64,000 nt of DNA from an uncultured Bacteroidota bacterium (GTDB lineage: Bacteria > Bacteroidota > Bacteroidia > Flavobacteriales > Flavobacteriaceae). The stretch is from assembly GCA_902515395.1 (NCBI GenBank), contig CABXUL010000003.1, forward strand, positions 1 to 64,000. Reading direction: 5' to 3'. Shown one piece after another: positions 6,352-24,057 of the stretch. The notes beneath the pieces are model-generated. The model saw only the letters and a program-made list of their open reading frames with translations, searched no databases and was not told the origin of the DNA. The position numbers and the translations under genes are program-made. The first letter of the stretch is position 1, and each line of letters opens with the position of its first letter.

Positions 6352-8133
6352 TTATCTGATGAATAGGCCATAAACCTCACCGATATTATGATGATCAAGC
6401 ACGTGAGGCGTACCGTCTATCCATATACATGGATATCCTGTATCATGATTTTTGTCTGGTTGTCCATCATAATCCCAGTCATCAGGGGTTCCGTCATTAT
6501 TTCTATCCATGGTAAACCCGTTTAAATAACCAATAATTACAATTTTTCCATCAACAATTTGAATATCCTTTGCTGTTCCCTCATCAAGCATGACTCCGTT
6601 CACAACTGCGCCAGGGAGGATGTTTATGCTTCTATTTTTCCAATATACAGGCTTTTGAATAAACTCTATATCAACATCATTTCCAACCCATTCACCATAA
6701 ATCATTTTTTCTGCCTGACCTGCACTGTAAACATTTCCATTTTGATCGACTGTGGCACCCCAAGCAAATGTATTCTCCCATCCTCCAGTCCTTTGATTTA
6801 TCGTCAAACCAGGTTTAAAATGAACAGCACTGGTATAATTTGCTTCGGCATATGAATAATCCCCGCAAAACCTTAATTGGTTAGTTCCAGAATGAATCTC
6901 AACATCCTCAATTGTGGCCTCTGGTTCATTTATATTTCTCCCAGATGGAAGATTTAGAGTACTTCTTTGAGTATTTATCCAATACGTAGGAATGTTTCCG
7001 TGGGAACCTGCAGGTTGTGACCATCCTGCAGTCACAACATCTCCATTGGGTTTGACCAACAAACCGTTAGTAGCACTGTCTCCTGGAGCAGAATTGTCAT
7101 ATTTTACTCCATTTTCCCAGTGGCAAGAATACGGCTTGTTTTGATTACCGGTCCAATGTCCACCAACGTAAACCTTATTATCATGTACAACTATATCATT
7201 AGTCTCAGGCTCATTACCGGGAAGATTAAATTGTTGTACATTTTGACCATCGATTACCCAATAACTGGCAGAAGATCCATAAACAAAACCACTAGCATAA
7301 ATTTTACCACCACTAACAGTTATACCAGTTAGCTCACCATTGGGATTTAAAATATTTTTTTGGCCATTAACCCAATATGTTCCACCTTCAGTCTCAGACA
7401 TTCCAACAACATAAATATCTCTTCCAGGAATTTTCTGAGGACAATCATTACATATTGTTGGATCAGGGTCAGGATCAACGTTATCGTCGACAGTATCTAT
7501 TGTATCAGGAATATCATCATTATCGTCATCTGTATCTTGGTTATCTCCTGTTCCATCACCATCACTGTCTTGAGTCTCTCCTGGATCTTCTGGGAAAGCA
7601 TCTTGAGTATCAGGAGTTCCATCATTATCATCATCATTATCTAAATTATTGTTAACTCCGTCATTGTCTGTGTCCTCGTGTCCATGAAGATTTCCTTGAA
7701 TATTAGTTATAGAACTGTTTACCTGATCAATAACAGCATTTAGATCACTTACTTGGGTTAATAAATTATTTAACTCTCCTGTAAGGTCCCCTGTGGTTGT
7801 TATCATCTCACCAACATAATTATTTAATGTCCCTAAGTCTTGTTCAACATTATCAACTTCGCTAATTAAGTTAGAAAGTGACTCACCAGTTTGAGCGATC
7901 ACATCTTTATTTTCAGATACTTGTTCGGTCAAGTCATCCGTCAAGGTTTTAGTCAAGTTCTTTTGTTCGACAATCTCCTCTGTTAAGGAAGTAACTCTGG
8001 TCATTAAACTATCAATTTGGCCTCTTAGGCCTAAATTATCAAATTGTAAATCATCAATTGTCTCACAGCTATTTGAAAAATAAACAGAAACAATTAAAAA
8101 ACAATAAATAAATGAGTGAATAAATTTTTTCAT
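6352..8133 (-). CDS. Putative surface lipoprotein: coiled-coil stalk, TSP3-like Asp-rich linker, C-terminal propeller-like repeats
   Basis: The listed ORF begins at 8193, but MKKFIHSFIYCFLIVSVYFSNSC (start 8133) is a better signal sequence. A heptad-rich region is followed by DTDNDGVNNNLDNDDDNDGTPD, then repeats of the type YVVG...YWVNGQ...L. Confidence 0.75.
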   Translation of the reverse strand: MKKFIHSFIYCFLIVSVYFSNSCETIDDLQFDNLGLRGQIDSLMTRVTSLTEEIVEQKNLTKTLTDDLTEQVSENKDVIAQTGESLSNLISEVDNVEQDLGTLNNYVGEMITTTGDLTGELNNLLTQVSDLNAVIDQVNSSITNIQGNLHGHEDTDNDGVNNNLDNDDDNDGTPDTQDAFPEDPGETQDSDGDGTGDNQDTDDDNDDIPDTIDTVDDNVDPDPDPTICNDCPQKIPGRDIYVVGMSETEGGTYWVNGQKNILNPNGELTGITVSGGKIYASGFVYGSSASYWVIDGQNVQQFNLPGNEPETNDIVVHDNKVYVGGHWTGNQNKPYSCHWENGVKYDNSAPGDSATNGLLVKPNGDVVTAGWSQPAGSHGNIPTYWINTQRSTLNLPSGRNINEPEATIEDVEIHSGTNQLRFCGDYSYAEANYTSAVHFKPGLTINQRTGGWENTFAWGATVDQNGNVYSAGQAEKMIYGEWVGNDVDIEFIQKPVYWKNRSINILPGAVVNGVMLDEGTAKDIQIVDGKIVIIGYLNGFTMDRNNDGTPDDWDYDGQPDKNHDTGYPCIWIDGTPHVLDHHNIGEVYGLFIR

Positions 8134-8146
8134 ATTTTTAGGCAAT

Positions 8147-9406
8147 ATGTTTACAATTAGGTATTTGGCGGCTAATTTATTGATTTTTTTCATATATCAA
8201 AGCGCCTTGTCCCAAAACCTGAATTCTCAGTGGAATATATTTATTGGTGGTAATTCTGTAGACTTATTCCCAGCTGGTGCAGGTAAAGACGCACCCTATT
8301 ACCCACAAGGAGAAGTTTTTGAAGATTTTTTAAATGTTGGAGATCACTGGAATTCAAGTGGTAGGTCAGTTTCTATATCTAAATCATTTTTTAGAACATT
8401 CGCCCTTGGTATTAATGTATCAGTTAATAATATTACTAAAATTGAGGGTTACAACAACATTGACTACCCTTACTATGCTGGGGAGGTATTTGCCAAAAAA
8501 ACCTTTAGAACAAAGAAAAAGTTACAGCCATATCTGAAGGTTGGTTATGGCATTTCAGGAATAGATAGAGGTATTTTTGGTGATACAATAAGTTTTAGTC
8601 AGTATTTTTCAAGGACAATTTCTCCTGGAATAGGAATTCAAATTAAACTCACAAAAAATATAGGTATTGAATTACAGTCCTCATTCCAAAATGCAGTTGA
8701 TTTTAAGGGAATCAAACATTTTAGGCATCAAGCTGGAATATATTTAGCTGCTGGAAATAGAGACAAAGATGATGATGGAGTTTTCAACAGAAAAGATAAA
8801 TGTCCAAAAATACCAGGTTCAGCTGAACTATTTGGATGTCCTGACTCGGATGATGATGGGGTAGCTGATCCGGACGACAATTGTCCGAATGAAATTGGGA
8901 CCATTGAAAACAATGGGTGTCCAGAAAAAATAGAAGAATTAGAGCAAACCCAAATTTTAACCGATCAATCCAGTAGCTCAATCTCAGACAAAATCTCGAC
9001 TACTTTGGAGGGTTCAATTGAAAGCTTAGTTGAAACAGAAAAAGATCTTGGGAATGATCAAGCTAGTGAAAGTGAACAAATTCTATCGATTTATTTCCCC
9101 GCAGACAGTTACAGAATTTTAGGAAGAAAAACTTATGATATTCTTGCAGATGTTAGAGATTATCTTACTTCTAAAATGGATAAGTACATAATACTTCAAG
9201 GTTATGCCTCAGGAGAGGGAGATGAAGAATATAACTTAGAATTGTCAAAATCTAGGGCCAATGCGGTAAAAGATTATTTAATATTCCTAGGTATTGAACC
9301 CGTTAGAATTGAGGTAAAAGCATTTGGGGCTAGTAGCTTTGTTAATGAACAAAGTTCAGAGAAAGAAAGATTATTTAATAGACGGGTTGAAATAATTTTT
9401 AGATAA
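8147..9406 (+). CDS. OmpA family outer membrane protein with TSP3 repeats
   Basis: N-terminal beta-barrel, DKDDDGVFNRKDKCPKIPGSAELFGCPDSDDDGVADPDDNCP, and C-terminal OmpA domain (LQGYASGEGDEEYNLELSKSRANAVKDYLIFLGI...NRRVEIIF). Confidence 0.92.
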   Translation: MFTIRYLAANLLIFFIYQSALSQNLNSQWNIFIGGNSVDLFPAGAGKDAPYYPQGEVFEDFLNVGDHWNSSGRSVSISKSFFRTFALGINVSVNNITKIEGYNNIDYPYYAGEVFAKKTFRTKKKLQPYLKVGYGISGIDRGIFGDTISFSQYFSRTISPGIGIQIKLTKNIGIELQSSFQNAVDFKGIKHFRHQAGIYLAAGNRDKDDDGVFNRKDKCPKIPGSAELFGCPDSDDDGVADPDDNCPNEIGTIENNGCPEKIEELEQTQILTDQSSSSISDKISTTLEGSIESLVETEKDLGNDQASESEQILSIYFPADSYRILGRKTYDILADVRDYLTSKMDKYIILQGYASGEGDEEYNLELSKSRANAVKDYLIFLGIEPVRIEVKAFGASSFVNEQSSEKERLFNRRVEIIFR

Positions 9407-15428: not shown

Positions 15429-15500
15429 AGCCAATGTCGGGATTTGAACCCGAGACCTCTTCCTTACCAAGGAAACGCTCTACCCCTGAGCTACATCGGC
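15429..15500 (-). tRNA. tRNA-Thr (anticodon GGT)
   Basis: Reverse complement GCCGATGTAGCTCAGGGGTAGAGCGTTTCCTTGGTAAGGAAGAGGTCTCGGGTTCAAATCCCGACATTGGCT folds as a cloverleaf with loop TTGGTAA. Confidence 0.93.
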
Positions 15501-15508
15501 AAAAAAAG

Positions 15509-15581
15509 AGCGGGAGACCGGGTTCGAACCGGCGACATTCAGCTTGGAAGGCTGACGCTCTACCAACTGAGCTACTCCCGC
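15509..15581 (-). tRNA. tRNA-Gly (anticodon TCC)
   Basis: Reverse complement GCGGGAGTAGCTCAGTTGGTAGAGCGTCAGCCTTCCAAGCTGAATGTCGCCGGTTCGAACCCGGTCTCCCGCT, loop CTTCCAA. Confidence 0.95.
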
Positions 15582-15635
15582 ATTTTATAGATACTAAGAT
15601 CTACAAATAAATTTAATATTTCAAATTTTGTCTTG

Positions 15636-15717
15636 TGGGGAGAGCAGGATTCGAACCTGCGAAGGTAAAACCAACAGATTTACAGTCTGTCCTCGTTGGC
15701 CGCTTGAGTATCTCCCC
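15636..15717 (-). tRNA. tRNA-Tyr (anticodon GTA), long variable arm
   Basis: GGGGAGATACTCAAGCGGCCAACGAGGACAGACTGTAAATCTGTTGGTTTTACCTTCGCAGGTTCGAATCCTGCTCTCCCCA, loop CTGTAAA. Confidence 0.95.
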
Positions 15718-15737
15718 CAAACTCAGAAATTTACAAG

Positions 15738-15811
15738 AGCCGATGGAGGGACTCGAACCCACGACCTGCTGATTACAAATCAGCTGCTCTAGCCAGCTGA
15801 GCTACATCGGC
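15738..15811 (-). tRNA. tRNA-Thr (anticodon TGT)
   Basis: GCCGATGTAGCTCAGCTGGCTAGAGCAGCTGATTTGTAATCAGCAGGTCGTGGGTTCGAGTCCCTCCATCGGCT, loop TTTGTAA. Confidence 0.95.
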
Positions 15812-22493: not shown

Positions 22494-22523
22494 TTGTCAA
22501 ATAGTAATTTTGAATTATATTTG
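22494..22523 (+). promoter_or_regulatory. trp operon promoter, TTG-N19-TATATTTG
   Basis: TTG 22494-22496, 19-nt spacer, TATATTTG 22516-22523; matches the Bacteroidota -33/-7 consensus (TTTG / TAnnTTTG). Confidence 0.7.
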
Positions 22524-22527
22524 CAAA

Positions 22528-22575
22528 ATGAAACATAAGATTGAAGATATTAGCTGGTGGAATGACTTGATTTAG
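22528..22575 (+). CDS. trpL: trp leader peptide MKHKIEDISWWNDLI (tandem Trp codons)
   Basis: ATG AAA CAT AAG ATT GAA GAT ATT AGC TGG TGG AAT GAC TTG ATT TAG, directly upstream of a terminator and trpE. Confidence 0.85.
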   Translation: MKHKIEDISWWNDLI

Positions 22576-22607
22576 TTCAGATCGTGATACTGCTGTTTCA
22601 TATTTAG

Positions 22608-22638
22608 AAGGCTTGTCATTACGACAGGCCTTTTTTAA
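22608..22638 (+). terminator. trp attenuator terminator hairpin
   Basis: AAGGCTTGTC-attac-GACAGGCCTT followed by a T run; ends about 10 nt before the trpE ATG. Confidence 0.85.
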
Positions 22639-22647
22639 TTTAGGACA

Positions 22648-24057
22648 ATGGAAAATAAAAAGAAATACAATCTTAAATCCATACATAAAAAAATACTTGC
22701 GGATACATATACGCCAGTGAGTGTATATCTTAAAATAAGGGATCAATTTCCTCACAGCTTACTTTTGGAAAGTAGTGACTATGATGCAAGAGCTAATAAT
22801 TTTTCATATGTATGTTGCAATCCAATCGCATCTATTAGTATATCAAATGGCAATATTGATTACAAATATCCTGATGATTTAAAATACAGCAGAGGGATAG
22901 ATTTAAAAGATAATATTCCTAATCTTATACAATCTTTTTCAAACCAATTTAAATCTGAAAAACACCAATTTAAATTTATTACCAATGGATTATTTGGATA
23001 TCTCTCTCACGAGGCCGTTGGTCATTTTGAATCGATATCTTTGAACAAAAATAAAAGTCATTTTAACACCCCAGAAATTTACTATGCGGTTTATCAAAAT
23101 ATTATTGCGATTAGTCTTTTTAATCATGAGGCATACATATTTTCAAATAGTTTAATAGGAGAGGACAACCTGGATGAGATTGAACAGATTATCAAAAAAG
23201 ATAATATTGCGACTTACCAATTTGAGAAAAATGGTGAAAAGTCATCGAATCTTACAGACGAAGAATTTCTAGCGCTTGTTCAAAAAGGAAAAGAACACTG
23301 CTTTAGAGGAGATGTTTTTCAATTGGTGCTTTCCAGGAGATTCTCTCAAGGCTTCACAGGAGATGAATTCAATGTTTATCGTGCCTTAAGATCTATCAAT
23401 CCATCTCCTTACCTTTTTTTCTTTGACTATGGGGATTTTAAAATTTTCGGGAGTTCACCTGAAGCCCAGCTTATTGTAAAGGACGGAAAAGCTGAAATTC
23501 ATCCCATTGCAGGAACTTTTAAACGAACAGGAAATGATATTGAGGACCAGTTATCAGCAGAACGATTGGCTGCTGACCCAAAAGAGAACAGTGAACACGT
23601 TATGCTTGTAGATTTAGCTAGGAATGATCTTAGTAGAAATGGTAGTGACGTGGTAGTTGAGAAAAATAGAGAAATTCAGTTTTTCTCCCATGTGATTCAT
23701 TTGGTTTCAAAGGTAACTGGATTCTTGAAGTCTAAAACAGCATCATATCAGATGGTCGCAGACACCTTTCCAGCAGGAACATTAAGCGGAGCCCCGAAGC
23801 ACAAAGCACTTCAATTGATTGACAAATATGAAAATGTAGCCCGTAATTTTTATGGAGGAGCATTGGGGTATATGGATTTTGATGGGAATTTTAACCACTG
23901 CATTATCATCCGGTCTTTTATGAGTAGAAATCAAATGCTTCATTATCAAGCTGGTGCAGGAATTGTCTCGAAATCCGTACCGGAAAATGAATTACAAGAA
24001 ATATATAATAAATTGGGTGCTTTAGATAAAGCACTAAACATTGCAGAAAAACTTTAG
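22648..24057 (+). CDS. trpE: Anthranilate synthase component I
   Basis: GDVFQLVLSRRFSQGF, FGSSPEAQLIVKDGKAEIHPIAGTFKR, DLARNDLSRNGSDV, FPAGTLSGAPKHKALQLIDKYE. Confidence 0.97.
   Translation: MENKKKYNLKSIHKKILADTYTPVSVYLKIRDQFPHSLLLESSDYDARANNFSYVCCNPIASISISNGNIDYKYPDDLKYSRGIDLKDNIPNLIQSFSNQFKSEKHQFKFITNGLFGYLSHEAVGHFESISLNKNKSHFNTPEIYYAVYQNIIAISLFNHEAYIFSNSLIGEDNLDEIEQIIKKDNIATYQFEKNGEKSSNLTDEEFLALVQKGKEHCFRGDVFQLVLSRRFSQGFTGDEFNVYRALRSINPSPYLFFFDYGDFKIFGSSPEAQLIVKDGKAEIHPIAGTFKRTGNDIEDQLSAERLAADPKENSEHVMLVDLARNDLSRNGSDVVVEKNREIQFFSHVIHLVSKVTGFLKSKTASYQMVADTFPAGTLSGAPKHKALQLIDKYENVARNFYGGALGYMDFDGNFNHCIIIRSFMSRNQMLHYQAGAGIVSKSVPENELQEIYNKLGALDKALNIAEKL

Follow-up and report, generated by a model that had tools for sequence, protein, structure and literature searches.

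The trp leader and its promoter

The window analyzed here, 64,000 nucleotides of DNA from an uncultured member of the Flavobacteriaceae, contains a trpEGDCFBA operon that begins with trpE (22648-24057, + strand, as are all leader and promoter features below) and runs to 28952. The seven genes match the models for trpE, trpG, trpD, trpC, trpF, trpB and trpA, so the full operon claimed by the first-pass annotation is indeed there. That annotation had also described a 15-codon ORF with tandem TGG and a hairpin with a T-run shortly before trpE, and both are present. The leader peptide ORF, MKHKIEDISWWNDLI (22528-22575), extends from an ATG at 22528-22530 to a TAG at 22573-22575, and the tandem Trp codons TGG TGG, read directly from the sequence, lie at 22555-22560, where they would serve as the sensor. 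The intrinsic terminator (22608-22636) has a stem of 10-12 bp and six T; it consists of AAGGCTTGTC at 22608-22617, the loop ATTAC, GACAGGCCTT at 22623-22632, and the T-run at 22631-22636, 11 nt before the trpE ATG at 22648. It is the top terminator-like site in the 13 kb scanned, and its sequence is found only once in the genome. RNA folding, one of the checks proposed earlier, gives the leader -32.3 kcal/mol versus -19.5 ± 3.1 kcal/mol for shuffles (z -4.2), making it far more stable than they are.

Three further segments complete the leader. Region 1 (22552-22570), located by folds, covariation and a cross-species test, is the 5' side of a 1:2 helix and lies over and beyond the Trp codons. 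Region 2 (22582-22594) begins just 3' of the leader stop codon with UCGUGAU (22582-22588), followed by AC (22589-22590) and GCU (22592-22594); its partner is region 1 or, alternatively, region 3 together with the terminator 5' arm. Region 3, AUUACGA (22618-22624), is formed by the terminator loop and the start of the 3' arm, and would be region 2's partner in the antiterminator.

Where does the leader RNA begin? The trp promoter has a -33-like element, TTGTCA (22494-22499), at a position that fits Bacteroidota promoters, and a -7 box, TATATTTG (22516-22523; consensus TAnnTTTG), which we placed after PMC9723704; a 16-nt spacer separates TTGTCA from TATATT. In the part of the Flavobacterium psychrophilum study that bears on this point, the sigma-A box is at -12 to -5 (PMC9723704), and since the box in the window ends at 22523, the same spacing would place +1 on the A of the leader AUG, position 22528. 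The box-to-ATG spacing is 4-6 nt in 32 of 33 clade leaders (4 nt in 15, 5 nt in 15 and 6 nt in 2), and mostly 16-30 nt in Flavobacterium. The sequences thus predict that the leader peptide mRNA of the marine clade is leaderless or near-leaderless. Bacteroidota largely do without Shine-Dalgarno sites. The trpL ORF of Sinorhizobium meliloti (rnTrpL; PMC7298713) is likewise leaderless, its RNA beginning at the trpL ATG, but that is an unrelated alphaproteobacterial leader, and the start site is known there whereas it is only predicted for the window leader. We note also that AUGAAACA (22528-22535) can form a perfect pairing with UGUUUCAU (22594-22601), which would hide the leader AUG in free RNA; this pairing is not obviously conserved among relatives.

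Alternative pairings in related leaders

The regions upstream of trpE were taken from marine Flavobacteriaceae and Flavobacterium, the close-relative set being the 34 with an intact upstream region (L003-L037 minus the truncated L031). The tandem Trp codons, whose conservation had been named as a refuting test, are kept in 32 of these 34, each with a terminator in the corresponding position; the exceptions, L009 and L013, have only one Trp codon. For the alignment, 32 leaders were selected by their tandem Trp codons, so the Trp columns prove nothing; the terminators were located by a finder that uses no fixed sequence. The terminator is paired in 99.7% of cells and seven of its ten pairs are invariant, a tighter constraint than termination by itself should call for.

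The first-pass annotation called for covariance analysis in relatives, and this gave different answers for the two upstream helices. The 1:2 helix, with the consensus AGC-GGU-AACGAAU opposite AUUCGU-ACC-GCU, covaries (score 0.202 versus 0.163 shuffled, 1/500). The 2:3 helix, UCGUGAU with AUYACGA plus AC:GU and GCU:GGC, is paired in 87% of cells across the 32 relatives versus 21-62% in slid versions, and is so nearly invariant within the genus that there is too little variation to covary. In the window alone, 2:3 does not stand out significantly from linker shuffles (p 0.21), and its support is comparative. The comparison identifies UCGUGAU (22582-22588) with AUUACGA (22618-22624) as the predicted antiterminator, where inspection by eye had earlier found no strong one. 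The candidate put forward at that time, AATGAC with GTCATT (a 1:3 pairing), fared less well: both segments are where they were said to be, but the pairing is found in 48% of cells, inside the 17-67% range of slid controls, and was rejected. By comparison and folding, the 1:2, 2:3 and terminator pairings are mutually exclusive.

Does a leader's region 2 fit its own terminator better than the terminators of other leaders? The trpE upstream regions of many families yielded 178 distinct leader-terminator pairs, thinned to 54 dissimilar Bacteroidia leaders. Each linker was compared with its own terminator core and with those of the other leaders by the score of the best helix that the two can form, after subtraction of row and column means. 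A first swap test on full duplex energies was open to base-composition bias, and these double-centred helix scores, with controls, were used instead. Own region 2 fits own terminator far better than swapped ones, with z 9.7 for the whole linker and z 11.8 at nt +12 to +30 past the Trp codons, where the signal is strongest; leaders within a family are related by descent, and the best helices are selected, but the permutations treat every pairing alike. Control values are z 1.4 for region 1 against the terminator, -1.0 for the later linker, -1.0 for the ORF start, 0.2 upstream, -1.3 downstream and -0.1 for the reversed terminator, while 1:2 scores z 6-7. The fit to the own terminator holds for leaders outside the Flavobacteriaceae alone (z 10.0) and for 13 leaders from other classes of the phylum (z 2.7). 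In 48 of the 54 leaders, as against 49% of swaps, the best helix begins 11-24 nt past the last Trp codon, a point just beyond the footprint expected for a stalled ribosome. The same role is filled by differing sequences, such as GUGAGA:UCUCAC (L107), GAGAAGC:GCUUCUC (L261), AACGUGA:UCACGUU (L225), UUGAAUCGG:CCGAUUCAA (L228) and, in another class, CUCAGUGAUAAC:GUUAUCACUGAG (L276).

Ribosome position and termination

An ORF with adjacent Trp codons stands before the trp operon, an intrinsic terminator intervenes, and the tandem codons, 1:2, 2:3 and the terminator are conserved in relatives. These features support the classical Trp attenuation proposed in the first-pass annotation, and make it very likely that the leader attenuates transcription through the ribosome, by the same logic as the trp leader of E. 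coli, and is a homologue of Bacteroid-trp.

How might the position of the ribosome decide the outcome? For window RNA ending at 22624, the computed probability of 2:3 is 0.92 with a ribosome on the Trp codons (masked to 22571), 0.006 for free RNA and 0.001 with the ribosome at the stop codon. From about 22630 onward, equilibrium folding favors the terminator over 2:3 in every state. Equilibrium folding of the finished leader was therefore set aside as an account of induction, and since the complete terminator beats 2:3 at equilibrium, antitermination would have to be kinetic, by delay. Of 15 other leaders, every one favors pairing between region 3 and RNA upstream of it once the Trp codons are masked (0.67-0.83), and in 13 this pairing is suppressed when the ribosome sits at the stop (0.00-0.23). 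The two without suppression, L017 (0.47) and L024 (0.68), have ORFs that end very early, so that region 2 should stay accessible while the ribosome is at the stop; basal termination in these two is, as modeled, beyond the simple scheme. In L017, L024 and their Arcticimaribacter-like relatives the leader ORF ends two codons beyond the Trp pair. In L003, L045, L103, L108 and L228, much of the free RNA likewise has region 3 paired with upstream sequence. Free RNA gives intermediate values in several leaders, so the 1:2 protector helix does not work equally well in all.

We propose that RNA polymerase would begin transcription with the A of the leader AUG or a nucleotide adjacent to it, and that a ribosome would load on the near-leaderless RNA. 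When charged tRNA-Trp is low, the ribosome would stall at UGG UGG and mask region 1 to about 22571, freeing region 2 to pair with the emerging region 3 (UCGUGAU:AUUACGA, lengthened by short pairings with the 5' arm of the terminator); terminator formation would be delayed and trpEGDCFBA transcribed. When Trp is sufficient, the ribosome would mask region 2 from the stop codon, or depart and let 1:2 form. The terminator would then fold and transcription end around position 22636, with a product of about 110 nt. Stalling, footprints, kinetics, start site and the response to Trp are all inferred here.

Several other explanations share part of this evidence. A hairpin near the trpE start might block ribosome loading and leave RNA polymerase running, and the mere 11 nt between T-run and trpE AUG in the window genome would suit such translational attenuation. 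We regard it as quite improbable, since the six-T run directly after the stem is kept in 32 of 32 clade leaders, and the hairpin is separated from the downstream trpE by roughly 50-100 nt in many Flavobacterium. Slimmer still is the chance that a stalled ribosome acts without a 2:3 antiterminator, for instance through Rho-dependent termination or 1:3 pairing: although AATGAC:GTCATT can form in the window, and can almost form in L003 and L004, 1:3 is not conserved (z 1.4) and 2:3 is, and the leader has an intrinsic terminator.

Could Trp instead be sensed by a protein or by tRNA directly, the ORF being incidental? The trp genes of other phyla are controlled in this manner by TrpR, TRAP or a T-box (PMC3766115). 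Hardly any weight falls on this explanation for the present leader, as TrpR (PF01371) was found in 0 of 23 relatives, no T-box appears in the window at gathering score, and the tandem Trp codons are conserved. Short ORFs are of course common, and two close relatives have but a single Trp codon; yet a short Trp-rich ORF precedes trpE in 81 of 95 other Bacteroidia genomes, representing 29 of 37 families, versus 1.4% of shuffled upstream regions, and both 1:2 and 2:3 are conserved. The likelihood of a chance ORF before an ordinary constitutive terminator is practically negligible.

Known families and spread across the phylum

The only Rfam matches in the window at gathering score are four tRNAs, with no T-box or other leader family; the four tRNA genes are clustered at 15429-15811 on the - strand. 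With a relaxed threshold, the best match to the leader is RF01692, Bacteroid-trp (30.5 bits, E 0.093), below that family's gathering cutoff of 49 bits, and RF00513, Trp_leader, matches nothing in the leader region at E values as high as 10. Bacteroid-trp was described by Weinberg et al. in 2010 (PMC2864571). The window leader shares its position before Bacteroidetes trp genes, its order of AUG, tandem UGG and terminal AAGGCUUGUC, and its hairpin over the Trp codons. Scores of relatives are graded (76.9, 73.3, 64.5, 54.4, 46.3 and 36.0 bits), with Flavobacterium relatives at 73-77 bits, and because of this series the window leader is likely a diverged relative of RF01692 despite the missed cutoff.

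The attenuator type is thus already known through RF01692; what the analysis adds is the predicted 2:3 antiterminator. The RF01692 model ends at AAGGCUUGUC, which is the terminator 5' arm, and contains neither region 3 nor the 2:3 pairing, so that an antiterminator is now supplied for a motif whose model had none, and exact compensatory mutations can be defined. The available parts of two papers on F. psychrophilum give clues to leader-peptide attenuation before amino-acid operons and place Bacteroid-trp before the trp operon (PMC9723704, PMC6414381); these attenuators belong to the same family as the window leader, and no antiterminator pairing is given in those parts. In the main text of open-licence papers we found no description of a Bacteroid-trp antiterminator. 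The E. coli trp leader (RF00513) has the same four-region logic, with Trp codons in region 1, region 2 pairing with 1 or 3, and region 3 part of the terminator. The window leader differs from it in being, by prediction, near-leaderless, in having a region 3 made of the terminator loop and the start of the 3' arm, and in having an antiterminator weaker than the terminator.

How widespread are such leaders? A phylum-wide pattern, TGGTGG..GGCTTGTC, gave mostly chance matches beyond the Flavobacteriaceae, and trpE upstream regions were used instead. Under strict filters RF01692 is found in 17 of 198 Bacteroidota genomes, all Flavobacteriaceae; it is also matched in one of 14 control genomes, that of Bacteroides ihuae. 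Its cutoff was reached by 0 of 20 tested leaders from outside the Flavobacteriaceae, and most Trp-rich trpE leaders are invisible to Rfam. In other classes of Bacteroidota, a Trp-rich leader ORF precedes trpE in 13 of 20 genomes (L274-L293), a few of these 13 resting on WPW or a non-ATG start. Similar DNA was sought in phages, and none was found.

On balance we favor the view that Trp leader-peptide attenuation is old and phylum-wide in Bacteroidota, well beyond RF01692, with a region 2 just past the stalled ribosome that captures the terminator loop, and with leaderless RNA in the marine clade. A survey published in 2013 proposed a possible gammaproteobacterial origin of amino-acid attenuators, with few transfers (PMC3766115); for trp, the spread across Bacteroidota argues against this origin. 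If the leaderless form is real, the leading ribosome would have to be closely coupled to RNA polymerase for it to work, and such coupling in Bacteroidota becomes directly testable.

Some minor observations may be added. A search of the genome for a his leader, by runs of His codons, was discarded, as the match in the window lies antisense to the gene for an Asp-rich repeat protein; this 613-aa protein, with DxDxDG-type repeats, is encoded at 6352-8193 on the - strand. The leader ORFs of L276 and L278, outside class Bacteroidia, contain WWWW. In L105 and L260, two complete Trp leaders stand in tandem before one trpE, each comprising a separate Trp-rich ORF and a separate terminator.
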